This document shows, piece by piece, positions 9,004 through 52,391 of a stretch of DNA of 52,391 nt. Source of the DNA: a virus; IMG/VR virus record IMGVR_UViG_3300032236_001850, positions 1-52,391 of that record. One strand, written 5' to 3'. How positions within the stretch are numbered: the stretch's first letter is position 1; each line of letters begins with the position of its first letter. The position numbers were made by a program, and so were the translations under genes. The notes beneath the pieces are model-generated. The model did not search any database, had not been told where the DNA came from, and saw nothing but the letters and a program-made list of their open reading frames with translations.

Positions 9004-9025
9004 AACTATTATTATTTTTATATGT

Positions 9026-9039
9026 GGATATATATATCC
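9026..9039. promoter_or_regulatory. Palindromic class B motif shared by two divergent late-type operons
   Basis: GGATATATATATCC is a perfect 14-bp palindrome, so it presents GATATATAT to both strands. It lies 21 bases upstream of the plus-strand ATG at 9061 and 22 bases upstream of the minus-strand ATG at 9003. It is the only such motif between these two operons. Confidence 0.55.
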
Positions 9040-9060
9040 AAATCTAATATTATATTTATT

Positions 9061-10725
9061 ATGAAGAATCAAAGTTTTCGTACCTTTTTCGATATTGAGC
9101 CGCTAATGGAGAACGTTCAGGATGCAAAATCCTATCTTGTTAAGCTTTATGCGGAAAAAAATAAAATCAAACCTTCGGAAATAGACGAAGAAACAAAGAA
9201 ACACATTTGGGACAATCCAAAATTCCTTGAAGTAAAGGATCTTATGGATAGAAATAAAATGCCAGGTAACACTCTACCGTTTCTTAAATTTGCAGTTGAT
9301 CAAAGAGCAACCATGGAACAATTGGAAGAAATTGTTGAATTATTGAAAGATAATAAAAACAATCTTAATTCCTTGCCTATGTCTATTCTTGAGTATTCTA
9401 AAATTGATAGAAACAAGAAGAAAAAAGAGGGAGAAGATGAAGAGGATGATAATGATCACAGACCAGGATGGGAAATGCTTCGAGATGATCTTTCAAATAT
9501 TGAGAGAAAAAGAAAATTGAAAAATTTCATCGACAGATTAACTCCTAGAATGAAAGAATATGTTAATAAAAAAGCAACAACAAAGCAACTAGAAAAATTA
9601 GAAGAGATATCAAGCCAATTAAAACTTATGCCTAAAAATAAGGAGGGCAGAGAAGCTTGGGATGCTTTTTTCTATCCAGATCTTGGTGTTCTAAATGATC
9701 ACGGTAAGGTAAAAGGTAGAATGGGATCTTATGATGACACCATAACATATACTGATTATAAAGATCCAGCAAAAGCAATGGATGGCATAATATCTGACGC
9801 CGAGGCTTTTATTTCTAAATGGGGAGAAGACGAGGATGCTGTTATCGCTAAAATAAAATCACTTGGTCCACAAGCTGGTATCATTTTCGCAAGAGATGGT
9901 TTTCTAATTATGTCTGCAAGAACACCGGAAGCACAAAGATTAGTTTGTTCAGAAACCGGCTGGTGTATTAGAACAGATTCTACATTTTGGAGCTATAGTT
10001 CAGGTAGAGTCCAAGTAAATGTAATTAATAATAATATACCAACCTCTGAAAGAAATAGTTTGGTTGGTATAACTATTAATAAAAACGGTACAGTTCACAC
10101 CGATGCAGATAGACCTAACGGTAGAATTCAGGCACAAGGTGGAGGAAATTACACTGGAAAACCTGCTACTGAATTACTTAGAAGAATTGGCGTACCTCAA
10201 GCTGGTATAGAAGCATTTGAAAGACAATTTCCAAAGGAAGCAAATGTTAAAATAATTCTAGAGCATTTCTTTAAAAATGCTGGAGGATTAAAACCTGATT
10301 TTATTGTTGAATCTCTTGTTAGCTTTAATAAAGGATTTCTTAAAGGAACTTTACCTGAAGATGAATGGGAAGAAATATCAGCTCTAATCTCTGAAATTAT
10401 ATCGGATGTTGAGGGTCTGAAACCTAAGGATTTCCTATCAGCATTCCTTGGTGACGGAGCAGATAAAACTGGTGGAATTTATGTCGAAGCAGCTTGGAAT
10501 ATATTTGATAAGCTTATTGGTGTTAAGAATGTAACTGAGGCTCAAATCGAGAGAATGTACGAAGATACAAAAGAAGGATACGAGGCTTTAGAACTGCTGA
10601 TTGGAATGTACGATGAAGGTTCCTTACCTGGGGTACCAAGAGAAGATTACGAAGCAATGAAATCTGCATACTCATACAAGGATAAATCTCTTGCTAGATT
10701 TAAGAAATTAATGAAAGAAAAATAA
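9061..10725 (+). CDS. Late-type WCI-motif protein, paralog A
   Basis: 554 residues from the ATG at 9061; an in-frame ATG at 9022 would include the promoter palindrome and is rejected. It begins MKNQSFRTFFDIEPLMEN, with a possible L-M-E cleavage site. The middle has AGIIFARDGFLIMSARTPEA and ETGWCIRTDSTFWSYSSG. The C-terminal 170 residues are helical. The same architecture and motifs recur in the protein at 31257-32756, so the two are paralogs. The charged region KKKKEGEDEEDDNDH near 126-141 is probably a linker. Function is unknown; the N-terminal peptide and class B promoter suggest virion association. Confidence 0.8.
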   Translation: MKNQSFRTFFDIEPLMENVQDAKSYLVKLYAEKNKIKPSEIDEETKKHIWDNPKFLEVKDLMDRNKMPGNTLPFLKFAVDQRATMEQLEEIVELLKDNKNNLNSLPMSILEYSKIDRNKKKKEGEDEEDDNDHRPGWEMLRDDLSNIERKRKLKNFIDRLTPRMKEYVNKKATTKQLEKLEEISSQLKLMPKNKEGREAWDAFFYPDLGVLNDHGKVKGRMGSYDDTITYTDYKDPAKAMDGIISDAEAFISKWGEDEDAVIAKIKSLGPQAGIIFARDGFLIMSARTPEAQRLVCSETGWCIRTDSTFWSYSSGRVQVNVINNNIPTSERNSLVGITINKNGTVHTDADRPNGRIQAQGGGNYTGKPATELLRRIGVPQAGIEAFERQFPKEANVKIILEHFFKNAGGLKPDFIVESLVSFNKGFLKGTLPEDEWEEISALISEIISDVEGLKPKDFLSAFLGDGADKTGGIYVEAAWNIFDKLIGVKNVTEAQIERMYEDTKEGYEALELLIGMYDEGSLPGVPREDYEAMKSAYSYKDKSLARFKKLMKEK

Positions 10726-23258: not shown

Positions 23259-23726
23259 ATGGATAAAGATCTAGCTGAAGCGGAAGCAAGAGTTCTAAAT
23301 TATATAAGAACAACCAAGGAATATTCTGAAATGAATTTCCAGGATAATAACAGTAAAATATGGGTTGCCCATAATTCGCTGATTGCCGCTGCCAAAATAT
23401 ACATCATCGACAATTATAAATTGATTGACGATTACACTGATCTTGATCTTATATTGAGAAGTGGAGCAACAGGCGGGAGGTTTTATTTTGGGCCAAAAAG
23501 AAACAGGGAGGTTTCTAGATCAAAGGAGTTAACCAGAATTTTAAAAGAACTGGATAACCAAACAATAGTTATAGAAAGCTTCGATGAAGCTATCTATGAC
23601 TGGACAGATGGGGATTTTTCAGTGGTGTTCAATGGTGAATCATACAATTGGATAGACGATGATTCAGTTATAAGTATAGCGTCTTACATAGAAAAAAAAT
23701 TAGAGGAAAATGAAATACAATATTGA
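23259..23726 (+). CDS. Hypothetical protein, 155 aa
   Basis: The ATG at 23259 is chosen because an earlier in-frame start falls inside the promoter; an ATG at 23251 opens only an 8-codon frame. It is acidic and mostly helical at the N-terminus (KDLAEAEARVLNYIRTTKEY). The C-terminal part has DEAIYDWTDGDFSVVFNGES and DDDSVISIASYIEKKLEEN. No family is recognised. It overlaps the RNA ligase gene by 17 bases, so they are probably coupled. Confidence 0.65.
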   Translation: MDKDLAEAEARVLNYIRTTKEYSEMNFQDNNSKIWVAHNSLIAAAKIYIIDNYKLIDDYTDLDLILRSGATGGRFYFGPKRNREVSRSKELTRILKELDNQTIVIESFDEAIYDWTDGDFSVVFNGESYNWIDDDSVISIASYIEKKLEENEIQY

Positions 23727-24828
23727 GGAAGTTAACGAATATGTGGCTAAGGGATTGGTTGATAAATGTGAGCATAAAGAACTCCCGATAGCAATCTATA
23801 AATATTCACGTAATTGTCAGTTCGAATGGATCTGGGATAACATCACGATGAATATGAGAGGTACCGTTCTCGATGAGAATGGAAACCTTATAGCCCGTAC
23901 ATTTCCTAAGTTTTTCAATATTGACGAGGGGAACATACCAAATTTACCATTTGAAGTTTTCGAAAAACTTGATGGTTCACTTGGTGTCCTATTCAACTAT
24001 GAGGGAGAATGGCATCTGGCAACACAAGGTTCATTCTATTCTGATATTGCTATTTATGCACAGGAGATATTGAAACGAAACGAAACTTATAAGGATGTGT
24101 TCTCTGAGAAATTTACTTTCCTTTTTGAAATCATATACCCAAAGAATCGAATAGTTTGTTCATATGGTGATGATGAGAAATTGGTGCTTCTTGCTGCTTT
24201 CAATACTAAATCAGGTAGAGAGGTTCCTTATCAGGAATTAAAGGACGTTGCGGAAAGAACTGGATTTGAATGTGCTAAAAGATATGATGGGATCAAGGAT
24301 CTTAAAAAGATAAAATCACTAATCGGTGATAATCAGGAGGGATTTGTTATAAGATTCTCTGATGGAACTAGAGTAAAAGCAAAGGGGGAGGAATATGTAA
24401 GGCTTCATGGGGTTCTGACATCGTTCTCCAACTTAGATATCTGGAGATGCTTAAAAGAGGGAAGCGATTATAGATCTTTAATGGTTGATGTTCCTGATGA
24501 ATATGATGCATGGGTTACAAACATTGAACAGGATCTCCAATCTAATTTTAATTTTATAGAGGCAACGGTAAAGGCCGAATATAAATTATTAGTAAAGAAA
24601 CTTAAAAGTCAAATCCCGACGGAGGAGGAAAGACAAGATCGAAACTCACCAGTACTTAAGGCATACAATAAGGAATTCTTTGAGCTTGTGGAAGGAAACA
24701 GATTAGCTGGGTATTTATTAGATCATCACAGAAATAAGGACTATTCAGGATCAATCTGGAATCAAATAAGGCCGGATTACGAAAAACCATTTTGGACAGA
24801 TTACTCATTAAAAAGAAATAAACCATGA
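23710..24828 (+). CDS. T4 Rnl1-type RNA ligase
   Basis: 372 residues, close to the T4 RnlA length. Nucleotidyltransferase motifs: motif I FEKLDGSLGVLF with the adenylated Lys near residue 88, a conserved Arg earlier in MNMRGTVLDENG, motif IIIa-like TFLFEIIYPKN, motif IV EGFVIRFSDG and motif V RVKAKGEEYVRL. Rnl1 ligases seal 5'-phosphate and 3'-OH RNA ends, classically to repair tRNA cut by host defence nucleases. Downstream in the same operon are a metallophosphoesterase and a kinase-like protein that could provide end healing. Confidence 0.88.
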   Translation: MKYNIEEVNEYVAKGLVDKCEHKELPIAIYKYSRNCQFEWIWDNITMNMRGTVLDENGNLIARTFPKFFNIDEGNIPNLPFEVFEKLDGSLGVLFNYEGEWHLATQGSFYSDIAIYAQEILKRNETYKDVFSEKFTFLFEIIYPKNRIVCSYGDDEKLVLLAAFNTKSGREVPYQELKDVAERTGFECAKRYDGIKDLKKIKSLIGDNQEGFVIRFSDGTRVKAKGEEYVRLHGVLTSFSNLDIWRCLKEGSDYRSLMVDVPDEYDAWVTNIEQDLQSNFNFIEATVKAEYKLLVKKLKSQIPTEEERQDRNSPVLKAYNKEFFELVEGNRLAGYLLDHHRNKDYSGSIWNQIRPDYEKPFWTDYSLKRNKP

Positions 24829-25347: not shown

Positions 25348-25748
25348 TGATTAAAGAACAAGAAATAGAAAAAGCAAAATTAGAGTTTGCAATAGAGCAA
25401 TTGGAGCAACATATAGTTCATCCAATGAAACCCGGTTATAGAAGACATGACGTCATGGATAAGATCAAGGAATTAAAATCCCAGCTTAAGTCCATTACTG
25501 ATTCCGAGAGTAAAGAAATCATCATATTAATCCAAACCGATGGATCTTGCGAGATGGCAAGGGTATCAATGGATGGTGTTGGTGTGATGGAAGGCAACTT
25601 TTGGGATTTTCACCCAGGGTGTCACAATATAAATGAATATGGTGACTTTGGAAACTGTGATGATTTAGCAATAAAGATATTGCTTAAGCTCACAAAGGAA
25701 GGTAAAAAAGCCAAGATAATTAAGGAAAAATATAAATACGAATACTAA
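25347..25748 (+). CDS. Hypothetical protein with N-terminal coiled coil
   Basis: 133 residues. Residues 1-50 form a probable coiled coil (IEKAKLEFAIEQLEQHIVHP, then DKIKELKSQLKSI). The rest is a compact domain including MEGNFWDFHPGCHNINEYG. Both junctions overlap neighbouring genes by one base. Unknown function. Confidence 0.6.
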   Translation: MIKEQEIEKAKLEFAIEQLEQHIVHPMKPGYRRHDVMDKIKELKSQLKSITDSESKEIIILIQTDGSCEMARVSMDGVGVMEGNFWDFHPGCHNINEYGDFGNCDDLAIKILLKLTKEGKKAKIIKEKYKYEY

Positions 25749-26395
25749 TGAAAATAATATTACAAGGACATCAGAAGATCTTCTGGACATCTGATTCCCA
25801 CTATAACCACTCCAACATATGTAGTGCTACTAGCGAATGGCCTGCAGGAAGAGGAACTCGGAAATTCAATTCATTGAATGAAATGAACGACCGACTAGTA
25901 TACGAGATCAATGCAATGGTAGGAGAGAATGATATACTAATCCACCTGGGAGATTGGAGCTTTGGTGGCATAGAATCTATCTCGGAGTTTCGAAATAGAA
26001 TTAACTGTAAAAACGTACACATCTTCTTAGGGAACCACGATCATCACATAAAAAACAACAGGGATAATGTGAGAGATCTTTTTGCTAGTGTCAATAAGCT
26101 GGAAACTATAGAGCTTCGAGTTCCACAAGGAAAGGAAACTAAGAAATACACATTTGAATGCTGTCATTTCCCAATAGCTAGTTGGGATGGACTTGGCAAG
26201 GGATATTCACATTTGCATGGACACGTTCATCTTCCTGGTAACTTAAAGATACACAAGGGAAGAGCAATGGATGTTGGTGCAGACGGAAACAACTACAAGC
26301 CATATTCATTGAATGAAATATTGAAGGCATTGGAGGGAAGACCTAAGATGCACTTATCATTACCAAAGGATCATCACACTGAGGAGGGGGACTAA
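25748..26395 (+). CDS. Calcineurin-like metallophosphoesterase
   Basis: 215 residues with the full set of two-metal phosphoesterase motifs: FWTSDSHYNHSNI (DxH), LIHLGDWSFGG (GD), IFLGNHDHHI (GNHD), CCHFPIASWDG and HLHGHVHLPG (GHxH). Phage and bacterial members act as phosphatases or phosphodiesterases on nucleic acid ends or nucleotides. Located between the RNA ligase and a P-loop kinase-like gene, it may remove 2',3'-cyclic or 3' phosphates in RNA repair; that is inference from context. Confidence 0.85.
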   Translation: MKIILQGHQKIFWTSDSHYNHSNICSATSEWPAGRGTRKFNSLNEMNDRLVYEINAMVGENDILIHLGDWSFGGIESISEFRNRINCKNVHIFLGNHDHHIKNNRDNVRDLFASVNKLETIELRVPQGKETKKYTFECCHFPIASWDGLGKGYSHLHGHVHLPGNLKIHKGRAMDVGADGNNYKPYSLNEILKALEGRPKMHLSLPKDHHTEEGD

Positions 26396-26396
26396 T

Positions 26397-26783
26397 ATGA
26401 AAACTTTATATCTATTGAGAGGATTACCAGGATCTGGTAAAACAACACTAGCTAAAAATATTGGCGGAGTTCACTATGAAGCCGACCAATATTTTGAGGC
26501 TAATGCTGGTGTACATTTCGATGGATATCAGTTGCAAAATGCCCATAATTACTGTAGAGAAAATGTAATTGGTGCTATGGAGTTGGGTGAACCTAGCATC
26601 ATAGTTTCCAATACTTTGACTAGAAAAAAAGAGGTCGAAGAATACATGGAACTCGGTGAAAAATATGGCTATAGAGTTTTCTCACTGGTTGTTGAAAATC
26701 GCCACGGTGGTGAAAATTCACACGATGTTGGTGAAGCAACATTAAACAAAATGAAAAACAGATTTGATTTAAAATTAATGTGA
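26397..26783 (+). CDS. P-loop kinase-like protein (polynucleotide-kinase-like)
   Basis: 128 residues. Walker A RGLPGSGKTTLAK at residues 8-20, an acidic EADQYFE strand, and IIVSNTLTRKKEVEEYMELG as the lid-like region. It resembles the short AAA_33 kinases and NEDD4-binding-protein-2-type P-loop domains related to T4 polynucleotide kinase. There is no C-terminal phosphatase domain, so the neighbouring metallophosphoesterase could take that role. It begins one base after the phosphoesterase stop. Confidence 0.78.
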   Translation: MKTLYLLRGLPGSGKTTLAKNIGGVHYEADQYFEANAGVHFDGYQLQNAHNYCRENVIGAMELGEPSIIVSNTLTRKKEVEEYMELGEKYGYRVFSLVVENRHGGENSHDVGEATLNKMKNRFDLKLM

Positions 26784-28347: not shown

Positions 28348-29025
28348 ATGGATTACGGAGCAGAATTTAGAAAGTACGCACAGAGCGAAAAGGGAATTAG
28401 TTCATTAACAATGGACTATCATGCAAAACACGTCGAAGCATCAATGACTCCAATGATTCTCGAAGAAAGAGAATTAAGGGTAACACAGATGACAGTTTTT
28501 GACAGATTAATGATGGACAGAATCCTTTGGGTTGCTGGACCGGTTAACGATAGAATGTCAACAATAGTTCAAGCACAACTTATGTTCTTGGATTCTGTGG
28601 AAGTGAAGGACATCATCATGCACATTGATTCACCTGGTGGATCTGTTAAAAGTGGTTTAAGTATGGTTGATGTTATGGACTACATCAAATCTGATATCTC
28701 AACGATCAACACAGGTATGGCTGCTTCAATGGGATCAGTGCTTTTAGGTGCTGGTACAAAAGGTAAAAGATCATCGTTAAGATTTAGTAAAGTGATGCTT
28801 CACCAATCCAGCGGTGGTTTCAGAGGAAACATCCAAGATGCTGAAATTGACTGGAAAGAGTGGCAAGAGGTAAACTCTATCCTATTTGATTTGCTTGGTG
28901 ATTTCTGTGACAAAGATCCAGAACAAGTTAAGAAAGACTCACAAAGAGATTTCTGGATGAGTGCTCAGGAAGCAGTTGATTATGGAATCATTGACGAGAT
29001 CGTAAAAGGTAAAAGAGTAAGATAA
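28348..29025 (+). CDS. clpP: ClpP-like serine protease
   Basis: 225 residues, slightly longer than bacterial ClpP because of an N-terminal extension of about 50 residues. The triad is visible: NTGMAASMGSVLLGAG (Ser), SKVMLHQSSGGF (His) and DSQRDFWMSAQEAVDYGIID (Asp). IIMHIDSPGGSVKSG is the family's Gly-rich strand. No Clp ATPase gene is nearby, so it may dock on a host ATPase or act alone. Some phages use ClpP-fold enzymes as head-maturation proteases, but this gene is in an accessory operon rather than a structural one. Confidence 0.88.
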   Translation: MDYGAEFRKYAQSEKGISSLTMDYHAKHVEASMTPMILEERELRVTQMTVFDRLMMDRILWVAGPVNDRMSTIVQAQLMFLDSVEVKDIIMHIDSPGGSVKSGLSMVDVMDYIKSDISTINTGMAASMGSVLLGAGTKGKRSSLRFSKVMLHQSSGGFRGNIQDAEIDWKEWQEVNSILFDLLGDFCDKDPEQVKKDSQRDFWMSAQEAVDYGIIDEIVKGKRVR

Positions 29026-31256: not shown

Positions 31257-32756
31257 CTATTTGGCCCTTTTGTTAAATTCTCCCATCATTTCCTCTCTGT
31301 CTGCTATAAGCTCTCTCATTCTTGTCAAACTCTGAATAAAACTAGGATCAAGTCCATTGGTATCTTCATAATCATCAATAAGTGATTCCATGCTTTCCCA
31401 TCCTCCTATAGAGGTCTCTTTGATTTCATCAATTTCAGATTTTGTGTAATCCTTACCTATAATTGCATCAAATACTCTCCATCCTGCAATTGTATAAATC
31501 CCTTGACCTATAAACCAATCCATAAAATCTGATTTTGGTATTTTCTTATTGTTGTAGATTATCTCTGAAACCGTTCCAGCAATCTTATTCCAGATACCCT
31601 CCGGCATTTCACCTGCAAGATCACCTTTACTTGCACCTAATAATGCCTCAATTATTTGATCTTTGTTTTTACTTTTGTATAACTGTGAAAGTGACTTCTT
31701 TATTGCAAATTCTGAATCTAGTGAATCTACTATGGTGTCAACTAAGGATTTTGGATAACCCAATTTGGTAAAATGTTCCTCTGGTGAATTGCTTTTTTTA
31801 ATGTTTACATCGTTTATATCATGTGAATCTGTAACAGATCCAGCAAATGATACGGTGTTACCAGTTAGAAAAAGAGGATCTGCTGGATCTATTCCAAAAT
31901 TAAATATATTAATCTGTAGACCCTTGGAAGAATACCCTTCGAATGAACCCCTATTGATACACCAGTTTGCAACGGCGCATAATTTTTTCTGTGCGTCTTC
32001 GGTTCGGATTGTCATTACTAAATATTTATCGTCAGAGTAAATAATACCTGCTTCAGGCTCAAGACTTTCAAGTTCATCAATTTTCTTTTTCATCCCAAGA
32101 TTTGAAAACCCACCAATGTAATTTGATATGTATTGAATCACATCGTCAATTTTCCATCTCTCCATGGATTTTATTTTTTCAAAAAGACGATCTATAGCAG
32201 ATTTACCAAGTTCTTGTAATTGAACTGCCATGGTGATTACTTTTTTCTGTTTTTCTGTATCCAATGAACGATATTGATCTCTTAATCCCTTAGGTAGCGA
32301 ATTTACAAACCATTTAGATTCTTTTTCTCTCTCTATAGTTCTAATTTCGTCGGTCAACTGTTCAAATCCGCTTATTCCCTCTCCTCTTTCTTCATTAGCA
32401 AATTTTTCAATAGGTTTACTCAATTGTTGAACTATATACTTCTTAGTTGTTATCGTGTCAAGTAATTGCTTTAATGATCTTACCTCCTCAGTATCTGTGG
32501 AAAGAGCCACAGGTATACCCTGATCAAAGTGAAATTTCACAAAAGGTAAAACGTATCCAGGATGATTTTTCAAAAGATTCATTATTGCCTGGTAAGATCC
32601 ATTTTTCAATGCTTCTTCCTTTTCTTCGGGAGTTAGTTGATTAGTTTCTTTTTTGTGTATTTTTGCATATCTTTTTTGCATATAAGCCTTTGCAGCAGAT
32701 ATGTTCTCATTTAAACTCCAATCTACAAAGGATTCAAATATATAGGATTTTCTCAT
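31257..32756 (-). CDS. Late-type WCI-motif protein, paralog B
   Basis: 499 residues beginning MRKSYIFESFVDWSLNENIS, with L-N-E as a possible cleavage site. It shares with the 9061-10725 protein the segments AGIIYSDDKYLVMTIRTEDA and VANWCINRGSFEGYSSKG, and the C-terminal pattern of PEGIWNKIAGTVSEIIYNN followed by AGWRVFDAIIG. The two are clear paralogs with diverged N-terminal halves. Function unknown. It sits between a DUF5824-like gene and the amidotransferase gene. Confidence 0.78.
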   Translation of the reverse strand: MRKSYIFESFVDWSLNENISAAKAYMQKRYAKIHKKETNQLTPEEKEEALKNGSYQAIMNLLKNHPGYVLPFVKFHFDQGIPVALSTDTEEVRSLKQLLDTITTKKYIVQQLSKPIEKFANEERGEGISGFEQLTDEIRTIEREKESKWFVNSLPKGLRDQYRSLDTEKQKKVITMAVQLQELGKSAIDRLFEKIKSMERWKIDDVIQYISNYIGGFSNLGMKKKIDELESLEPEAGIIYSDDKYLVMTIRTEDAQKKLCAVANWCINRGSFEGYSSKGLQINIFNFGIDPADPLFLTGNTVSFAGSVTDSHDINDVNIKKSNSPEEHFTKLGYPKSLVDTIVDSLDSEFAIKKSLSQLYKSKNKDQIIEALLGASKGDLAGEMPEGIWNKIAGTVSEIIYNNKKIPKSDFMDWFIGQGIYTIAGWRVFDAIIGKDYTKSEIDEIKETSIGGWESMESLIDDYEDTNGLDPSFIQSLTRMRELIADREEMMGEFNKRAK

Positions 32757-42613: not shown

Positions 42614-42829
42614 ATGAAAGCAAAAATAACAAAAAGTATGGCTTTAGCTATCGAGATAGGAATAGCAGAGCTTGAAAATAGCGGAATCTGGGAGGATGGT
42701 CTTTCCAAAAAGGAAATAAAGAAAACTTACAAGGGAATAGAGGAGCTTGAAATGCTTCTTAGTAAAATAGAACAAAACAAAAAGGAAAAAGAAAATGGAA
42801 AGAAAACTAGCGAGCATTCGGAAGATTAG
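42614..42829 (+). CDS. Small helical protein, 71 aa
   Basis: It begins one base after the previous stop, is helical and strongly Lys/Glu-rich (LSKKEIKKTYKGIEELEMLL, then a KIEQNKKEKENGKK tail). The last 35 bases overlap the second RNA ligase gene. No family is recognised. Confidence 0.55.
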   Translation: MKAKITKSMALAIEIGIAELENSGIWEDGLSKKEIKKTYKGIEELEMLLSKIEQNKKEKENGKKTSEHSED

Positions 42830-43934
42830 TGATCTCCAGCCAATCGAGGGTGCTGACCTTATAGAATTGGCTATCGTTGATGGCTGGAAGGTTGTGGTTG
42901 CCAAAGAGGTTGGTCACAAGATTGGTAATTTTGTTATCTACTGTGAGGTTGATTCATTCCTTCCAATTAGAGAGGAATTTGAATTTCTAAGAAAAAGCTC
43001 ATATAGAAAGATGGCTGACGGGAATGAGGGATTCAGACTTAAAACCATAAAGCTTAGAGGTCAGGTTTCTCAGGGACTTATTCTACCGCTTTCCATATTG
43101 GAAGGCGAGGAAGAGGATGAAAAATTAGGGTACCTACAAACTCCTGATGGACCAATATACCAATTAGGTCCTTACGAGGGAGCTCTTGTTATTGAGGAAG
43201 GTGCTGATGTTACGGCTAAGCTTGGTATCATTAAATGGGATCCACCAATGCCTGCTGAATTAGCTGGTGTTGCAAAAGGAAACTTCCCAAGCTTCATCCC
43301 TAAAACTGACGAGGAGAGAATCCAAAATCTTGCAAAGAATTACGAGAAAATGAGATCCCAAAAGTACTATGTAACTGAAAAGCTAGATGGTTCATCTTCA
43401 ACATTCTACGTTTACAATGGAGAATTTGGGGTTTGTTCTAGAAATCTAGATCTTTGCCGTCCTGAACCTTTCGTTGAAGGCATGGTTATGTGCGAGGATG
43501 GGATAGAAAGACCTAAAAGGGAGAACACTTTCTGGAAAGTTGCAAGAGAACTTGGAATTGAGGAGAATATGCTTGATCTCAGTGGAAATCTTGCAATCCA
43601 GGGGGAAATCATAGGCGAGGGTGTGCAAGGTAATCCCTACAAGATCAAAGGTCAAACTCTTAGAGTTTACAATGCTTTTGATATTGATGCCCAAGAATAT
43701 TTAACTTTTGAAAAATTCAAGTTGACCGTTAAGGTTCTTGGATTGGAAACTGTGCCTATTATCGATGAGGATTTCACTTTACCAGAAACAATAGACGAGC
43801 TTCTAAAGTTTGCTGAGGGTAAATCAGTGCTTAATGCGTCTGCAGAGAGGGAAGGTTATGTGATTAGAAGTTTTGACATGACAACAAGCTTTAAAGTTAT
43901 ATCAAACAATTTCTTACTTAAGGAGAAAGAGTAA
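42795..43934 (+). CDS. DRB0094-type RNA ligase (second RNA ligase)
   Basis: 379 residues. An N-terminal OB/tRNA-binding-like domain covers about 1-165 (LASIRKISDLQPIEGADLIE, later RLKTIKLRGQVSQGLILPLS). The ligase core follows: motif I YYVTEKLDGSSSTFYVYNG with the adenylated Lys near residue 197, IQGEIIGEGVQGNPY, motif IV REGYVIRSFDM and motif V SFKVISNNFLLKE. This is the Deinococcus-type Rnl5/TIGR02306 family, different from the Rnl1 enzyme at 23710. Such ligases seal nicked RNA or RNA in hybrid duplexes. Confidence 0.88.
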   Translation: MERKLASIRKISDLQPIEGADLIELAIVDGWKVVVAKEVGHKIGNFVIYCEVDSFLPIREEFEFLRKSSYRKMADGNEGFRLKTIKLRGQVSQGLILPLSILEGEEEDEKLGYLQTPDGPIYQLGPYEGALVIEEGADVTAKLGIIKWDPPMPAELAGVAKGNFPSFIPKTDEERIQNLAKNYEKMRSQKYYVTEKLDGSSSTFYVYNGEFGVCSRNLDLCRPEPFVEGMVMCEDGIERPKRENTFWKVARELGIEENMLDLSGNLAIQGEIIGEGVQGNPYKIKGQTLRVYNAFDIDAQEYLTFEKFKLTVKVLGLETVPIIDEDFTLPETIDELLKFAEGKSVLNASAEREGYVIRSFDMTTSFKVISNNFLLKEKE

Positions 43935-47610: not shown

Positions 47611-47636
47611 TTGTTCGAATATTTTTCATATATTTG
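47602..47636 (+). promoter_or_regulatory. Class A promoter before 47655
   Basis: T8 run, TCG at 47615, 11 bases, TATATTTG at 47629-47636, then CAATATAATAATTGCAAT. Same spacing as the other copies. Confidence 0.8.
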
Positions 47637-47654
47637 CAATATAATAATTGCAAT

Positions 47655-47870
47655 ATGGATAAGAAGTATGAAGATTGGTTGTCTCTTAGAGAATCAACAA
47701 AAAATGAGGATGGAGCTTTATGTTACTGTGGTCACACCAAAAGATGCGACTGCGGGGATCCTGACGAGACAACATTTAACGAATCAGTAGCGAGGGAGGA
47801 CATCGTTATAGGCGATCCCAATAACGGTTGGAAAACGGTAGAAAATGAAGGTAATTTCACAAAAGAATAA
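47655..47870 (+). CDS. Small Cys-rich protein, 71 aa
   Basis: The ATG at 47655 is downstream of the promoter; an earlier in-frame TTG lies inside it. GALCYCGHTKRCDCGDPDET carries four Cys and one His, a likely zinc site. The rest is acidic. First gene of the operon that ends in smpB. Confidence 0.65.
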   Translation: MDKKYEDWLSLRESTKNEDGALCYCGHTKRCDCGDPDETTFNESVAREDIVIGDPNNGWKTVENEGNFTKE

Positions 47871-47873
47871 ATT

Positions 47874-48089
47874 ATGAGCGAACTAGTAAAAGTTGGAAAA
47901 ACGATGAAGAGTACATTTGAGCAAATCTCTGAGCAGGGATTCTTGGATGAATTCCCAGATTCAGAATTTAGAAACGAATCAGCATTCTCTGGAATGGGCG
48001 ACGTTTATATTAAAAGCGAATTGGTTGAAAAATTCAACCAAATGAAAGAGCAAAATCTAGGAACTAATGGAAGTTTCCCAATACTATAA
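47874..48089 (+). CDS. Hypothetical protein, 71 aa
   Basis: Three bases after the previous stop. It is acidic and mainly helical (VGKTMKSTFEQISEQGFLDE, then KSELVEKFNQMKEQNLG). No family is recognised. It precedes the CCA-adding enzyme by three bases. Confidence 0.6.
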   Translation: MSELVKVGKTMKSTFEQISEQGFLDEFPDSEFRNESAFSGMGDVYIKSELVEKFNQMKEQNLGTNGSFPIL

Positions 48090-48092
48090 AAA

Positions 48093-48830
48093 ATGCCAAA
48101 ATTATACAAAGTAGGAGGTACAGTTCGGGATGCTATCCTTGGGATTGATTCCAAAGATATAGATTTCACTTTCGTGCTGGATGACTTAAACCAGACGGTC
48201 GAAGAGGGATTCCAAAAGATGGATGACTGGATGACGGAGAATGGATTTGAAATATTTCTCAGAGTTCCCGAAATGTACACCATTCGTGCTAGGTTTCCTA
48301 AAGGAGATCCAAACGAGAAACTGGTAGCAGATTTCGTGATGTCAAGAAAAGAAGTTGGCTACATTGAAGGAACAAGAAGACCTAAGCTTGAACTTGGAAC
48401 GCTGGAGGATGATTTAATTCGTAGAGACTTCACTATCAATGCGATGGCAGTGGACGAGGATGGGGAAATCATAGATCTGTTTGGTGGACAAGATGACCTA
48501 AGAATGGAGATATTAAGAACACCCAGGGATCCAATGATAACTCTAATGGATGATCCGCTAAGGCTTCTTCGTGCTATGAGATTTTGCATAACTAAGGATC
48601 TTGTTATCCATGACGACATCTGGGATGCTATGAAGCAACCAGCTCTGATTGATAAACTGAATCTCACAGTCAGCGGAGAGAGAATCAGAGAGGAGATTGA
48701 GAAGATGATGAAATTCGATACTGTTACATCAATGAGACTAATAACAGATTGTGACGATCACATGGAGGGAAAATTATTAAGAACACTATTCAAAGCAGGG
48801 CTTTGGCTAAAACCAACATTCAAACAATGA
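48093..48830 (+). CDS. cca: CCA tRNA nucleotidyltransferase, short form
   Basis: 245 residues. LYKVGGTVRDAILGIDSKDI (head GG motif and Asp) and DIDFTFVLDD hold the catalytic core of class II CCA-adding/poly(A) polymerases. DLIRRDFTINAMAVDEDGEI, DLFGGQDDL and DDPLRLLRAMRFCITKDL complete the head and neck. Bacterial enzymes are 350-450 residues; here the C-terminal body/tail is missing, though T4-type and short CCA-like enzymes exist. It could repair tRNA 3' ends, or add nucleotides to another RNA. It overlaps the barrel gene by four bases. Confidence 0.85.
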   Translation: MPKLYKVGGTVRDAILGIDSKDIDFTFVLDDLNQTVEEGFQKMDDWMTENGFEIFLRVPEMYTIRARFPKGDPNEKLVADFVMSRKEVGYIEGTRRPKLELGTLEDDLIRRDFTINAMAVDEDGEIIDLFGGQDDLRMEILRTPRDPMITLMDDPLRLLRAMRFCITKDLVIHDDIWDAMKQPALIDKLNLTVSGERIREEIEKMMKFDTVTSMRLITDCDDHMEGKLLRTLFKAGLWLKPTFKQ

Positions 48831-49513
48831 GAAATATAATCATTTTAATTTTATGTGCAACCACAATGTCTGCACAGTTTAAGAAAACATTCAATGAAAC
48901 AGTTACTGGTTCATATAACACAATAAAAACTGGAGAGCAGATCATAGCTTCAGTGAATTCTTTGAATCATGCGGACTATGGAAAGTTTGAGTTTGACCTA
49001 AATCCAATTTATAATGTGACTTACGTGGCTGGGAAAATGACAGCCAATGAGTTCATGAATAAAACTAATATTGGATTTAAGCACAACACCCTGTCCTTTT
49101 TCTATCTTAATCAATATGATACTTCCCTTATAAGAAGCATAGATTGGGACGAGTGGAATGGTCTTGGTGCGGGAAAGAAATTTAAGATAAGCGATAAGTT
49201 TACCACATCAGTTTCATACTGTTTCGAACAGCAACTTAGGAAGTATGTTGGTTCCGATTTAGAAACCATATACAGGAATTCATTCAGGCTGAAATCTTCA
49301 CTGAATTACGAGACAGTGGCTTTCTCAATAGAGTATTATTACCAACCAGCAATAAACACCAATGACGTCAATGTTTTTGGCACATCCAAGATAACAATTC
49401 TACCAAATAAACCAGTTAGCTTTGTTGTACAGAACACGTACAATTATATGAGCACTGACGCTGTTAAAACAATACAGAACACAACATTTGGAGTAAATGT
49501 AAATATAAAATGA
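48827..49513 (+). CDS. Outer-membrane beta-barrel protein 2 (DUF481-like)
   Basis: 228 residues from the ATG at 48827. Signal peptide 1-17 (IIILILCATTMSAQ). Amphipathic strands are visible: NPIYNVTYVAGKMTANEFMN, LSFFYLNQYDTSLIRSIDWD, GLGAGKKFKISDKFTTSVSY, YETVAFSIEYYYQPAINTND. The order loosely resembles DUF481-type barrels. It sits between two enzymes and overlaps both genes by four bases, so it is part of the same transcript. Role unknown; a surface change during infection is possible. Confidence 0.7.
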   Translation: MRNIIILILCATTMSAQFKKTFNETVTGSYNTIKTGEQIIASVNSLNHADYGKFEFDLNPIYNVTYVAGKMTANEFMNKTNIGFKHNTLSFFYLNQYDTSLIRSIDWDEWNGLGAGKKFKISDKFTTSVSYCFEQQLRKYVGSDLETIYRNSFRLKSSLNYETVAFSIEYYYQPAINTNDVNVFGTSKITILPNKPVSFVVQNTYNYMSTDAVKTIQNTTFGVNVNIK

Positions 49514-49992
49514 AAATGAATCCACTGGTAGTTGCAGCATTCCCTGGATCTGGGAAATCCTATTATAGTGAAGAATTGGATCAGTCCGGATCTTCAGTAT
49601 CAGTTGAGGTTTCTGATCTGCTATTAAAATATTACAGCTTCAATACAGAAAGAGTTAATTTAGAAATTAGTGAGATCTACCAGAAATATTCATTATTTAT
49701 AGATGAGAAAATAAATGATGGCTACTCTATAATTTTTATCCCTGCATTCTATGATGATGTATTGGAACTGATGAGATTCGAAAAGTACCGGATCGTTTTA
49801 GTTTACCCGAAACAGGATCTCCTTAATGAGTACCTGACAAGATACAAATCCCGAGGAAGTGACGGGATCTATATAGAAAAGATCTCGAGAGAATGGAACG
49901 ATTCCCTTGATAAATTAAAATCAATAGCTGGATGCAGACATATAGAGTTGAATAGCATGCAATACATATCGGATATAATAAAAGATCTTTAA
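49510..49992 (+). CDS. P-loop NTPase, kinase-like
   Basis: 160 residues. VVAAFPGSGKSYYSEEL is a Walker A motif at residues 6-22. DGYSIIFIPAFYDDVLELM, FEKYRIVLVYPKQDLLNEYL and the following RYKSRGSDGIYIEKISREWN fit a small nucleotide- or RNA-kinase-like fold with a lid. It starts by ATGA overlap with the barrel gene. Its neighbours are RNA-related, so an RNA or nucleotide kinase is plausible. Confidence 0.75.
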   Translation: MKMNPLVVAAFPGSGKSYYSEELDQSGSSVSVEVSDLLLKYYSFNTERVNLEISEIYQKYSLFIDEKINDGYSIIFIPAFYDDVLELMRFEKYRIVLVYPKQDLLNEYLTRYKSRGSDGIYIEKISREWNDSLDKLKSIAGCRHIELNSMQYISDIIKDL

Positions 49993-49994
49993 AA

Positions 49995-50912
49995 ATGAAA
50001 AGAAATCTAAAAAAAATAATCATGAACTCAGATCTCCCAATGACCAGCGGTCCGTTACTCAGATTTGATCAGGAGACAGCTGATAAGATAACAGAGAGTG
50101 GGAAAGAAACCATCAGGGAAGCCATCAAGGTTGTCAGTGCAGGAATATATGGGGAGGTAGGAGACAAATCAGATTTTAAGAAGATGCTGGAGTCATGGAA
50201 CCCAGTTGATTCGCTTGGATCCGGAGAGCCAGAGCAATTAACACAGGAGGAGATCGACGAGAGACAGGCTTATATAGACGACACCAAAAATGGATACTCT
50301 GAAGCTGCCGTTCATAAGATACTCAAGGATCTAAAGATTGACGAACCTGTTCTCAATATCTATAGATACGGAAGCCGAATCTATGGAACTGCTGATCAGA
50401 ATTCAGATCACGATTACATCATAGTTACCAGAGGAGCTATGCTTAAGAGTGGTGCTTTTAAACAGAATGCCATCTCCAGCGAAAACCGTAACATCCAAGG
50501 AATCCTTTATTCCAGAAGCGGATTTACGGATGCTATCAACAACTACGATATTAGTGCATTGGAATGCCTATCATTACATCCTGATGATGTGGTTAAAAGC
50601 ACTTGGCCTTTCAAGGTTCAAAAATGGGACAATAAGGTGATGACAAAAAAGATCATCTCGAAAGTTTCAGCATCCTGGCACACTGCTGACATGCAGGCTA
50701 AAGATGGATTCAAAGATCGTGCTAAGAAGGGTATTTTTCATGCACTTAGAATTCTGCACTTTGCATTACAGTTGAAGGAGAATCAGAAGATTGATGACTT
50801 TGGATGTGTTAACTATATCTGGGAGGATTTTAAATTGATTCCAGATGAGGAGTTTGATACCAGAGACTATATCAAGGAGAGGGATGAACTAATGGAAGAA
50901 TTAAGATCATGA
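49995..50912 (+). CDS. Pol-beta-like nucleotidyltransferase
   Basis: 305 residues. LNIYRYGSRIYGTADQNSDH, then DYIIVTRG, gives the G-S-x(n)-D-x-D nucleotidyltransferase core around residues 118-145, and DISALECLSLHPDDVVKSTW is a later acidic strand. The N-terminal 100 residues are helical with an acidic linker (EPEQLTQEEIDERQ). The C-terminal part is a helical bundle (KKGIFHALRILHFALQLKEN). Phage homologs of this type are known but poorly characterised. The tRNA-related neighbours suggest an RNA substrate. Confidence 0.78.
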   Translation: MKRNLKKIIMNSDLPMTSGPLLRFDQETADKITESGKETIREAIKVVSAGIYGEVGDKSDFKKMLESWNPVDSLGSGEPEQLTQEEIDERQAYIDDTKNGYSEAAVHKILKDLKIDEPVLNIYRYGSRIYGTADQNSDHDYIIVTRGAMLKSGAFKQNAISSENRNIQGILYSRSGFTDAINNYDISALECLSLHPDDVVKSTWPFKVQKWDNKVMTKKIISKVSASWHTADMQAKDGFKDRAKKGIFHALRILHFALQLKENQKIDDFGCVNYIWEDFKLIPDEEFDTRDYIKERDELMEELRS

Positions 50913-51145
50913 TAAAAATAGACGAGAAGAAACTTGACAGATATTACCAGGAATACCTAAATAGTATTGCGGAAAATCCAGAGATTAGTCACAATCTAAA
51001 GAGTCTTGCACCAGTAAATTGGTATAGTACTAGTTTGGTATCGTGTGTCTTTGCATCTATATTGGAAAGTAATTTTCACGACATAGCAACACTCGAAGAA
51101 GTTAAATTTGAAAAATTAGGAAATGAAAATAAAAGCGATTTATAA
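50909..51145 (+). CDS. Hypothetical protein, 78 aa
   Basis: It starts by ATGA overlap with the nucleotidyltransferase gene and overlaps pth2 by 23 bases. Mostly helical: DEKKLDRYYQEYLNSIAENP, then WYSTSLVSCVFASILESNFH. No family is recognised. Confidence 0.6.
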   Translation: MIKIDEKKLDRYYQEYLNSIAENPEISHNLKSLAPVNWYSTSLVSCVFASILESNFHDIATLEEVKFEKLGNENKSDL

Positions 51146-51374
51146 AAGAAATTTGAAGATGCCGGAGGGCAAGGTGGCTTCACAAGTTGCACATGCTGTT
51201 AAGAATCTTGGGATCACTCCGATTGATTCGATTATAGTGGTTCTTTGTGTTTCGGATAAGAAGTTTGAAGAGCTTGTTGCGGAACACCCAAATTGCTATG
51301 TACAAACGGATCTAGGTTTAACCTGCGTTGAAAGTGGTACACGTACTGCTGCAGCATGGATAGAGGAGGAATAA
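51123..51374 (+). CDS. pth2: Peptidyl-tRNA hydrolase 2 (Pth2), short
   Basis: 83 residues. IYKRNLKMPEGKVASQVAHA is the Pth2 N-terminal signature (R-x-D/N-L-x-M-x-x-G-K-x-A-x-Q-x-A-H-A), and LGLTCVESGTRTAAAWI matches the conserved C-terminal strand. Typical Pth2 proteins have about 115-120 residues, so this copy lacks the middle segment around the I-x-D-A-G region but keeps both ends. Pth2 releases peptides from peptidyl-tRNA; Bacteroidota normally use the unrelated Pth1. The stop overlaps the smpB ATG (TAATG). Confidence 0.82.
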   Translation: MKIKAIYKRNLKMPEGKVASQVAHAVKNLGITPIDSIIVVLCVSDKKFEELVAEHPNCYVQTDLGLTCVESGTRTAAAWIEEE

Positions 51375-51820
51375 TGGTAAACAAAGTCAACATAAACAAC
51401 AGGAAAGCAAAGTTCGATTTCGAGTTCATTAGAACTCTAACTGCTGGTATGCAGCTGATGGGATCGGAAGTAAAGGCTATCCGAGATGGCAGAGTTTCCT
51501 TTGTGGATTCCTACTGTTACTTCAACGGCAAAGAACTTTTTCTAAAGAATCTAAATATAACTCCAATATCATCTACATATTCTCACGAACCCAACAGGGA
51601 GAGAAGGTTGCTTCTTAATAGAAGTGAACTTAGAAAACTTCAGAATGATATGGACAGAGGAATGACTATAGTTCCTTTTAGAATTTTTACAAATGAGAAG
51701 GGCTTGATCAAACTAGATATCGCACTTGCTAAGGGAAAGAAGAGTTACGACAAAAAAGAAAAAATAAAGGAGGCAGATATAAAAAGGGATACTAAAAGAT
51801 TCATTGCTGGAGATATATAG
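51374..51820 (+). CDS. smpB: SmpB, tmRNA-binding protein
   Basis: 148 residues, about full length for SmpB. NNRKAKFDFEFIRTLTAGMQ, LMGSEVKAIRDGRVSFVDSY and GKELFLKNLNITPISSTYSH follow the SmpB fold in order. NRERRLLLNRSELRKLQNDM and LAKGKKSYDKKEKIKEADIK carry the conserved basic C-terminal region that reaches the ribosomal A site. SmpB with tmRNA frees stalled ribosomes. The start at 51374 follows GAGGAGGAATA, an unusually clear Shine-Dalgarno for this genome. No ssrA-like RNA is visible in the window, so it may use host tmRNA. Confidence 0.92.
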   Translation: MVNKVNINNRKAKFDFEFIRTLTAGMQLMGSEVKAIRDGRVSFVDSYCYFNGKELFLKNLNITPISSTYSHEPNRERRLLLNRSELRKLQNDMDRGMTIVPFRIFTNEKGLIKLDIALAKGKKSYDKKEKIKEADIKRDTKRFIAGDI

Positions 51821-51838
51821 GTATAAAATCATACCTAT
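51817..51838 (+). other. Small hairpin at the smpB stop / homing endonuclease leader
   Basis: ATAGGTAT AAAATC ATACCTAT, an 8-bp perfect inverted repeat with a 6-base loop overlapping the smpB stop codon. It ends two bases before the next ATG. It has no T run, so it is not a standard terminator; it may limit translation of the downstream gene. Confidence 0.5.
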
Positions 51839-51839
51839 T

Positions 51840-52391
51840 ATGAGACACAGTAAAAAATATCTGATTAATTATTTAATAGAAAATTATAACAAAAAAAGTA
51901 AATCCGAGATAATTAGTGAACTCGACCTTTCGTGGACATATCTGCAAAAAATAGCATCTTTAAATGGTATAAAAAGAGAATTTTGTGAAAATAAAAACGG
52001 AGGTAAATATTCAATATTAACAAATTATGATAATATTATAAGTTGTTATTGGTTAGGATTTATGTTAGCTGATGGTAATATAAGCAAAAAAAATAATATG
52101 ATGCTCAATTTAGCAATATGTGATAAAGATCATATACTCAAAATAGAAACTCATGTTGGAAAAACCTGCGTGTATTATAAAAAAGACAATATAATAACAA
52201 TTGTTTTGAATGATTCTGTTACATTTAAAAAAATAGCATCAGATTTCAATTGGAAAACTAATAAAACAAAAAACCCACCCGTTCTACCGGGATCAATGAG
52301 CCCTGATTGTATATTTTCAATGATCATCGGATTCATTGATGGTGATGGATGTATTGATGAAAGGTATGGACTGAAAGTTAAATGTGATGGA
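51840..52391 (+). CDS. LAGLIDADG homing endonuclease, 3' end off the window
   Basis: At least 184 residues. The two LAGLIDADG motifs are WLGFMLADGNISKKN at about residue 74 and MIIGFIDGDGCIDERYG at about residue 160, in the arrangement of a monomeric two-motif enzyme. The N-terminal 60 residues look like a helix-turn-helix DNA-binding region (SKSEIISELDLSWTYLQKIA, then SLNGIKREF). The gene is more AT-rich than smpB and has many AT-rich codons, as expected of a selfish insertion. It lies 20 bases after smpB and is free-standing. Confidence 0.85.
   Translation, partial: MRHSKKYLINYLIENYNKKSKSEIISELDLSWTYLQKIASLNGIKREFCENKNGGKYSILTNYDNIISCYWLGFMLADGNISKKNNMMLNLAICDKDHILKIETHVGKTCVYYKKDNIITIVLNDSVTFKKIASDFNWKTNKTKNPPVLPGSMSPDCIFSMIIGFIDGDGCIDERYGLKVKCDG

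Follow-up and report, generated by a model that had tools for sequence, protein, structure and literature searches.

Does a phage that encodes SmpB among genes for tRNA upkeep possess ribosome rescue of its own, or does its SmpB lend itself to the tmRNA of the host? We investigated this question in a window of 52,391 nt (the whole stretch of DNA analysed, positions 1 to 52,391 of IMG/VR record IMGVR_UViG_3300032236_001850) from a 434-kb phage genome (record length, 434,509 bp), the hosts of which are likely Bacteroidota-type bacteria.

Translation-maintenance operon

The sequence-only reading had described a five-gene operon encoding a short CCA-adding enzyme, a P-loop NTPase, a Pol-beta-type nucleotidyltransferase, a short Pth2 and a full-length SmpB. 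All five genes were found close to where that reading had placed them, on the plus strand and with starts and stops that overlap or abut. The gene run is nevertheless longer than claimed, as two further ORFs (48827-49513 and 50909-51145) had been overlooked:

47629..47644, plus strand: promoter-like motif TATATTTGCAATATAA upstream of the operon, an exact copy of a repeated motif
about 47655..47870, plus strand: small ORF of about 71 aa that opens the operon, with relatives in L010 (4995-5213) and L011 (5153-5398)
about 47874..48089, plus strand: small ORF of 71 aa, function unassigned
48093..48830, plus strand: cca, short class II tRNA nucleotidyltransferase of 245 aa, head and neck (PF01743, phrog_24229)
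48827..49513, plus strand: signal-peptide ORF of 228 aa
49510..49992, plus strand: P-loop NTPase/kinase-like protein with GSGKS (phrog_4182, E 4e-26)
49995..50912, plus strand: Pol-beta-type nucleotidyltransferase with GSRIYGTAD..SDHDYI (phrog_388, E 1e-9)
50909..51145, plus strand: ORF of 78 aa, function unassigned
51123..51374, plus strand: compact Pth2 of 83 aa (PF01981; predicted fold)
51374..51820, plus strand: SmpB of 148 aa (TIGR00086), with a possible alternative upstream ATG at 51356
51840..52391, continuing to record position 52874, plus strand: LAGLIDADG-type homing endonuclease, inserted at the extreme 3' end of smpB and outside the rescue set

Two related genomes (G001 and G002) share cca, the nucleotidyltransferase, the 78-aa ORF (83-87% conserved), pth2 and smpB in that order, whereas neither relative has the P-loop gene or the signal-peptide ORF in its operon, both of which are specific to the present genome. 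At the position of the ORF at 47874..48089, G001 encodes a tRNA-binding-domain protein (PF01588, 64 bits); family searches with the first small ORF (47655..47870) gave no match. The motif TATNTTTGCANTATAA occurs in the window seven times with at most one mismatch, against 0.05 expected from shuffles, and is a real signal rather than chance. The promoter proposed for the operon thus stands as a non-random motif, although it lies about 450 nt upstream of cca with two small ORFs intervening. Matches to the Bacteroidetes promoter consensus TTTG-N18-22-TAnnTTTG were no commoner than chance, and none lay at this operon.

The cca product matches the PF01743 catalytic head (73 bits against a cut-off of 23, E 3e-20) and phrog_24229 (E 9e-64), and keeps the motifs GG-VRD, DxD (D22/D24), RRDFTINAMA, DDPLR (as DDPLRLLRA) and ERIREE. 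It consists of head and neck only, in agreement with the description of a short enzyme; because the C-terminal body and tail are absent and the top NCBIfam equivalog reaches 110 bits of the 439 needed, we call it CCA-adding-like. The nucleotidyltransferase, also kept in both relatives, scores 20 bits against PF01909 (cut-off 21), and its predicted model, which is of low confidence (pLDDT 48), resembles nucleotidyltransferases at the level of the general Pol-beta fold only. No Pfam model exceeded its cut-off and no RlaP family came up in the Pfam search even at E values of up to 1; membership of RlaP is therefore unsupported.

Pth2 passes PF01981 (25.5 bits, cut-off 23), and its model (pLDDT 92) superimposes on the archaeal Pth2 structures 2zv3_H and 3erj_B with TM 0.79-0.81, which bears out the assignment to a short Pth2. 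The compact protein lacks a middle segment and belongs to a phage family of 23 loci. As it is only 83 aa long and reaches 27.3 bits against the full-length equivalog PRK04322 (cut-off 126), we regard it as a Pfam-level relative of Pth2 rather than a full-length equivalog.

SmpB keeps the residues of trans-translation

SmpB, present in one copy in the whole record, exceeds the cut-offs of TIGR00086 (156.4 bits against 119.1) and PF01668 (159 against 27) over its full length, as had been claimed. Loss of the residues that contact tmRNA had been named as one observation that would speak against a role in rescue. Judged against published work on contact and tail residues (PMC8363625 and PMC4151336), these residues are kept: the hydrophobic patch contacting tmRNA G19 (Leu91 and Leu92) is present as L80 and L81, and the tail retains KGKK (120-123), Y125, D126, K127 and K128. 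Y125 occupies the aromatic position 136 of E. coli SmpB, at which the change His136Tyr is of little consequence (PMC4151336), and K128 replaces Arg139 of the DKR motif, which is Arg in G001 and G002. By sequence, this SmpB keeps the tail residues that trans-translation requires.

Phage SmpBs resemble those of Bacteroidota, with which they share KGKK, the aromatic residue and the DK(R/K) tail, and are up to 56% identical to the nearest Bacteroidota SmpB found. This resemblance might suggest that smpB is a recent passenger acquired from a host and of no selected role. In the SmpB tree, however, this phage (G000) joins G017 and G015 in one phage clade (support 98/86) on a long branch with no bacterial SmpB nested inside, which points to an old phage-held gene; smpB and its operon are kept in three related genomes, and the function-critical residues are intact. 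We consider the passenger explanation already disfavoured and highly improbable.

A divergent tmRNA with a conserved long tag

Within the window, ARAGORN and Rfam gave no tRNA or tmRNA. A search of the whole record for a tRNA array and for ssrA, as suggested by the sequence-only reading, yielded both: about 31 tRNAs and, 350 kb from smpB, a tmRNA gene:

record 400,049-400,513, outside the window, plus strand: tmRNA (ssrA), full-length but divergent, one-piece (RF00023)

This gene aligns end to end with positions 1-374 of RF00023 (E 2e-14) at 41.4 bits, under the cut-off of 47, and was not detected by ARAGORN. Its orthologues fall on both sides of that cut-off (G002, 51.6; G021, 48.3 and G017, 59.3 over; G001, 38.0 under). 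In the acceptor, G1-C72, G2-C71 and G3-U70 are invariant in five phages, and G3-U70 is also present in the tmRNA of a 735-kb phage. At the remaining acceptor and T-stem pairs both partners vary among the five, so that the tRNA-like T-arm co-varies. PK1 (6 + 6 pairs) is invariant and hence lacks covariation support, and the region in which PK2-PK4 would lie is conserved among the five phages. The RNA as a whole folds no more stably than shuffled sequences (z -0.8), and whole-RNA folding energy is uninformative here. We found no convincing copy of TATNTTTGCANTATAA ahead of the gene.

The tag frame follows PK1 and reads GKNNVWETINAFGTPVAKTELAIAA, 25 aa that end in LAIAA at a stop codon. It is open and conserved in the five phages despite 17 substitutions between G000 and G017, and conservation of the tag residues exceeds random placement (P 0.003). 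Bacteroidota tmRNAs share with the phage tmRNA the G3-U70 acceptor, T-arm, PK1, G-x-N-N tag start and Ala-Ala end. The phage tag starts with GKNN (GENN, GNEN or GEDN in Bacteroidota), and the likeness to the host G-x-N-N start indicates that resume codon and frame agree. In contrast, all eight Bacteroidota genomes encode tags of 9 aa, making the phage tag about three times longer; it lacks the host YALAA or YAMAA end, yet ends in Ala-Ala. The molecules differ likewise in length and score, with about 372-404 nt and 101-151 bits in Bacteroidota and about 460 nt and 38-59 bits in the phage group.

CCA is not encoded by 28 of the 31 phage tRNA genes or by the phage tmRNA gene, and cca fits a genome of this kind. 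We also considered cca as a special partner of the phage tmRNA; this idea is weakened because the Bacteroidota tmRNA genes examined likewise do not encode CCA, and we do not tie the enzyme specially to the phage tmRNA.

A proposed phage-encoded trans-translation pair

We propose that the phage probably encodes its own trans-translation pair, SmpB and tmRNA, for ribosome rescue and tagging. In this scheme, SmpB (51374-51820) would bind the phage tmRNA (400,049-400,513), to which a CCA end would be added by the phage's cca enzyme, by that of the host or by the two together, and the CCA-ended tmRNA would be charged with alanine via its G3-U70 acceptor. The SmpB-Ala-tmRNA complex would enter ribosomes that have stalled because their mRNA is broken; such a ribosome would switch to the tmRNA frame, add (A)GKNNVWETINAFGTPVAKTELAIAA and stop at the tmRNA stop codon, thereby being freed, and the Ala-Ala-ended tag would direct the fragment to a Clp protease, either host ClpXP or phage ClpP with a ClpC-like unfoldase. 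Pth2 may recycle dropped-off peptidyl-tRNA, while repair of tRNAs may fall to cca, the nucleotidyltransferase and the window's two RNA ligases. The likely benefit would be that phage translation goes on in late infection or when RNase-type defences act. What the DNA itself shows is the genes, the anatomy of the tmRNA, the conservation of its tag frame and a SmpB tail that is intact; from these we infer that the genes are expressed, that this SmpB and this tmRNA work as a pair, that tagged products are degraded and that the setting is one of defence. Points that weigh against the proposal are the 350 kb between tmRNA and smpB, the tmRNA score under the Rfam cut-off, its unremarkable global fold and Lys in place of Arg139. 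The earlier interpretation is supported in part: a translation-maintenance or ribosome-rescue set is the best reading of these genes, and a response to host defences that cut tRNA or mRNA is a hypothesis.

Alternatively, SmpB could serve the host tmRNA, boosting or redirecting host trans-translation, with the phage tmRNA a decayed relic. The divergence of this tmRNA, its score under the Rfam cut-off and its absence from ARAGORN calls would suit this reading, as would two huge phages (LR756502 and LR745206) with SmpB in which we detected no tmRNA at a lax threshold or by a T-arm/U70 pattern, the plausible pattern matches being tRNAs; going by these two records, a phage SmpB may at times use the tmRNA of its host. 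A relic would not be expected to keep its tag frame, stop codon and G3-U70 in five phages with compensatory changes, and among five Pth2-selected contigs over 170 kb, SmpB and tmRNA are jointly present in two (G015 and G017) and jointly absent from three. For this genome we consider use of the host tmRNA improbable. Somewhat less remote, though still unlikely, is that the cluster is a jumbo-phage tRNA-repair set only (CCA-adding enzyme, RlaP-type nucleotidyltransferase and Pth2) beside which smpB is an unrelated neighbour. Such a set with an anti-RNase role has been described (PMC7824862) and the two RNA ligases would belong with it, but pth2 and smpB overlap and remain neighbours in G001 and G002, a tmRNA partner exists, and the RlaP assignment is unsupported, as described above.

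The tag itself bears on a reading of similarly low probability, in which phage tmRNA and SmpB chiefly compete with the host system or act as a decoy, drawing away from it stalled ribosomes, SmpB or EF-Tu, or alter the fate of fragments, instead of rescuing ribosomes for the phage. The 25-aa tag, against 9 aa in the eight Bacteroidota genomes and without their YALAA/YAMAA end, is compatible with this, and the tmRNA of mycobacteriophage DS6A is hardly more than a tRNA-like domain, a kind of molecule that can inhibit tmRNA (PMC4131195). Against a decoy, the phage frame is complete and ends in Ala-Ala, and the partners Pth2, cca, tRNAs and RNA ligases point to upkeep. We retain a phage-encoded rescue pair as the preferred reading.

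Candidate proteolytic partners

The genome also encodes potential recipients of tagged proteins, among them, in the window:

28348..29025, plus strand: ClpP protease, Ser-His-Asp positions conserved

ClpP matches PF00574 (192 bits) with the catalytic triad aligned, and by sequence is nearer to ClpP (247 bits to PRK14514, whose cut-off is 361) than to head-maturation protease (66 bits to that model). A ClpC-like unfoldase encoded by the genome scores 733 bits to solved ClpC over residues 33-677, lacks the N-domain, and carries SGF aligned with AGF at the hydrophobic loop for ClpP; no NCBIfam equivalog exceeded its cut-off. Phage ClpP is a possible end point for tagged proteins. As specific partners of rescue, ClpP and ClpC are weakened by their distribution, with matches in 161 and 176 phage records, respectively, against 48 for SmpB, and ClpP and Clp ATPases are frequent in jumbo phages without SmpB. 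Infected cells could contain a separate phage tagging-and-degradation circuit, in which the phage's SmpB and tmRNA add the phage-type long tag and its ClpP and N-domain-less ClpC-like unfoldase read that tag preferentially, routing stalled products away from host quality control; we offer this as a tentative extension that is rather doubtful at present.

Relation to known phage systems

The sequence-only reading had called SmpB in a phage rare, which is only partly right. Transfer-messenger RNAs and SmpB have been reported in huge phages for stalled-ribosome rescue (Al-Shayeb 2020, PMC7162821), and tblastn gave SmpB matches for 48 phage records, 15 of them Lak records; some of these 48 probably reflect bacterial contamination or the edges of prophages. 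Several records examined here (the 735-kb phage, Lak phages and LR756504) belong to the kind described in that report. The tmRNAs of the report were called by ARAGORN, and the passages considered here describe no tag sequences or conserved long tag. While tmRNA and SmpB in huge phages are thus already known, the concrete divergent pair with a conserved long tag is new, turning a passing remark in the literature into a testable pair. The mycobacteriophage Bxz1 group, phage G and marine myophages such as Melnitz also carry ssrA (PMC4131195, PMC9004378); these studies cover phage ssrA and not phage SmpB, whereas the protein partner is present here, and the Melnitz tmRNA is two-piece whereas this one is one-piece. 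The RNA repair and ribosome rescue set of jumbo phages, proposed to counter RNase defences (PMC7824862), shares the CCA-adding enzyme, Pol-beta nucleotidyltransferase, Pth2, RNA ligases and tRNA arrays with this phage; the main text of that survey mentions neither tmRNA nor SmpB, both present here.

Of the 11 SmpB-bearing huge-phage records in the initial search, 9 have a full-length tmRNA, and these include Lak phages and the 735-kb phage. ARAGORN misses eight of the nine, so that tmRNA is under-called in SmpB-bearing phages and phage trans-translation is probably commoner than annotation suggests. As the long conserved tag separates phage from host products, tagged proteins could be distinguished by mass spectrometry in infected cells, which would open the way to asking if phages depend on a ribosome rescue of their own and by what its products are degraded.

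An intact SmpB within a translation gene cluster

The window covers bases 1-52391 of a 434,509-bp IMG/VR virus record. An initial sequence-only reading had proposed a run of five genes (cca, P-loop NTPase, Pol-beta-type nucleotidyltransferase, pth2 and smpB) at window 48093-51820, and all five were borne out, lying on the + strand with short overlaps and matching named families with varying strength. SmpB gave the strongest family match of the five (TIGR00086, 156 bits against a cut-off of 119). At just 245 aa, the cca product is similar to two phage families and to the catalytic head of class II tRNA nucleotidyltransferases, and the 83-aa Pth2 matches its family chiefly through its first 27 residues; a Pth2 model built with 15 phage relatives reached pLDDT 92, and the solved structures closest to it were without exception Pth2 enzymes from archaea or human (the top two at TM 0.79-0.81). 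The nucleotidyltransferase carries a GS...DxD motif, and family searches and structure comparison gave nothing narrower than Pol-beta type. Two additional ORFs lie inside the run. The operon probably starts with two small ORFs behind a promoter-like motif at 47629 that recurs in the window (7 matches against 0.05 expected):

13199, 23233, 34960, 36152, 40127 and 47629, + strand: promoter-like motif TATNTTTGCANTATAA
47414, - strand: the same motif

At the matching operon position, the close relative G001 encodes a stand-alone tRNA-binding domain protein (PF01588; L010 5233-5586) resembling the MetG C-terminus and CsaA.

In an alignment with E. coli SmpB and 80 bacterial SmpBs, 79 of them assigned to Bacteroidota, the SmpB of this phage retains the Leu91/Leu92 patch, KGKK, D137, K138 and an aromatic side chain at position 136, all marked by structural or mutational work on SmpB (PMC8363625, PMC4151336). 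Loss of key residues, which the earlier reading had named as evidence against its proposal, is therefore not seen. The R139 position holds Lys in this phage and Arg in its two closest relatives. In the SmpB tree, the proteins of this phage (G000), the related phage G017 and contig G015 cluster on long branches in a single group made up of phage sequences alone (98/86), which argues that smpB is not a recent host capture; the same long branches make deeper placements unsure. A LAGLIDADG homing endonuclease gene (window 51804-52391, running on as far as record position 52874) is inserted in the last codons of smpB; its 3' end reproduces the G001 smpB end (CTAAAAGAAGTTTATAATGGAAAGAG), and SmpB here ends in FIAGDI, not SI. 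Contig G018 (71,144-73,054; L231/L234) carries, besides a complete smpB with a homing-endonuclease-like ORF ahead of it on the opposite strand, a separate truncated smpB start of ~33 residues closed by a stop, whose sequence differs from that of the complete copy.

A divergent tmRNA encoded elsewhere in the genome

The whole-genome tmRNA search suggested by the initial reading, run with the Rfam tmRNA model, returned a full-length match at record 400,049-400,513 (41.4 bits, E 2e-14 in a local scan). The score lies below the Rfam curated cut-off, and ARAGORN did not report a tmRNA there; by its anatomy the match is nonetheless a tmRNA. Its acceptor, GGGCCAA/UUGGUCC, includes G3-U70, the hallmark pair of alanine tRNA and tmRNA, and it has a GAGGG-UUCGAAU-CCCUC T-arm, a PK1 of two stems and a long H2 helix. 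In a comparison of five related phages (G000, G001, G002, G021 and G017), acceptor pairs 1-3 are invariant, whereas pairs 4 and 7 differ on both sides in G001 relative to the other four, and T-stem pairs 2 and 3 differ on both sides in G017, with pairing kept throughout. The G017 acceptor (GGGGCUG/CAGUUCC) is one base off the alignment register, pairs throughout and has G3-U70. The orthologues in G002, G021 and G017 score above the Rfam cut-off.

The tag frame, read from the Rfam-aligned resume codon, encodes GKNNVWETINAFGTPVAKTELAIAA followed by a stop, and frame, length and stop are all kept in G001, G002, G021 and G017 (GKNNVWESINAFGTPVAKTELAIAA, GKNNVWDAINAFGAPAAKAEFAIAA, GKNNVWDAINAFGAPAAKAEYAVAA and GKTNVWDAINAFGAPVAEVEYAVAA, respectively). 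Random placement of the G000-to-G017 changes equalled or exceeded the observed residue similarity in 0.3% of trials and produced a stop in 34%; for the closer pair G000/G021 the test gave just 5%. Bacteroidota tags are 9 aa in 8/8 genomes (GENNYALAA, GEDNYALAA, GNENYALAA, GESTYAMAA, GNTSYAMAA). For other SmpB-bearing huge phages, reading the frame by eye, with the first residue less certain, gave DNVNSFEQSILNELFAPVEMAVAA for LR756504, DGNVLNKMALVGLVRQDELVNVA for G015, GDYKMNAEDMMSIPTSLTGKVATESFVEDLVLA for the 735-kb phage LR756501 and DDEI(D/E)FRMAA for Lak phages. With the G000 group, four phage lineages thus show long tags, and Lak tags are short. In the 735-kb phage, a group I intron (RF00028, 96 bits; near 718,388; L032 1272-1503, - strand) splits the tmRNA T-loop; the exons join as CAGGGUU|CGAAUCCCUG, the acceptor is GGGCUCG/CGGGUCC with G3-U70, and an ORF with zinc-finger-like Cys motifs lies downstream.

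Co-occurrence of SmpB and tmRNA

A full-length tmRNA candidate was present in 9 of 11 records picked for SmpB (G000, G001, G002, LR756501, four Lak records, LR756504, LR756502 and LR745206), which are non-independent, four being Lak relatives and three close kin. LR756502 and LR745206 (SmpB in L018 and L019) gave no tmRNA by Rfam or a T-arm/U70 pattern; both encode ClpP and a Clp ATPase close to those of G000. Among 11 contigs reached through Pth2, nucleotidyltransferase or tmRNA, two had both genes and seven had neither, one short fragment had SmpB only and another had tmRNA only; of the contigs exceeding 170 kb, five in all, two had both and three neither, numbers too small for a firm test. 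ARAGORN missed 8 of the 9 tmRNAs in the first set, one Lak record being the sole exception; of the two from the second set, it missed that of G015 and reported that of G017 with a shortened tag.

Huge phages with tmRNA and SmpB are already described (PMC7162821), as are phage tmRNAs on their own (PMC4131195, PMC9004378); for jumbo phages, Pth2, cca and nucleotidyltransferases have likewise been reported (PMC7824862). Within the literature searched, three points are new: the divergent tmRNA family with a conserved tag of 25 residues, the pairing of that family with this SmpB operon, and the under-calling of SmpB-phage tmRNAs by ARAGORN.

A putative phage ribosome-rescue pathway

Judged from their sequences, an intact SmpB and a complete tmRNA whose coding frame is conserved are both inherited in several related phages, and we consider it likely that they form a working pair. 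On established knowledge, the tmRNA would be charged, enter stalled ribosomes and tag nascent products for proteolysis. CCA addition is needed, since no CCA is encoded by the tmRNA gene or by 28 of the 31 tRNA genes; nor is it encoded for the bacterial tmRNAs examined, so its absence is a lineage trait and no proof that the phage cca serves the phage tmRNA. A phage ClpP (window 28348-29025) is nearer cellular ClpP than head-maturation proteases, and a ClpC-like unfoldase (record 233,854-235,980) lacks the N-domain and has SGF at the ClpP-binding loop position. ClpP and a Clp-type ATPase each occur in 8 of 9 SmpB-bearing records tested, but both are widespread among jumbo phages without SmpB, so phage proteins could complete the pathway without this proving that they do; a separate phage tag-and-protease circuit seems to us rather unlikely.

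Why a phage would need such a rescue set is a matter of speculation: it might counter the cleavage of tRNA or mRNA by RNase-type defences, cope with the load that decaying mRNA imposes during a long infection, or give control over what becomes of tagged proteins. RNA ligases, cca and Pth2 have been described in the context of RNase-type defences (PMC7824862), and the window holds two RNA ligases with neighbouring genes:

23710-24828: RNA ligase, T4 Rnl1-like, phrog_562
25748-26395: calcineurin-like phosphoesterase
26397-26783: small P-loop kinase
42795-43934: RNA ligase, phrog_968

Elsewhere in the window, a 644-aa protein (2359-4293, - strand) combines a signal peptide and a cohesin domain with a dockerin-like repeat and, matching PF18962 at 45 bits, a C-terminal sorting domain of type IX secretion, making it a possible phage-encoded substrate of the Bacteroidota-specific secretion system. 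Two apparent paralogues of ~500-570 aa (9022-10725, + strand; 31257-32756, - strand) share, by eye, the motif AGIIxxxDxxLxMxxRTxxAQxxxCxxxxWCI.
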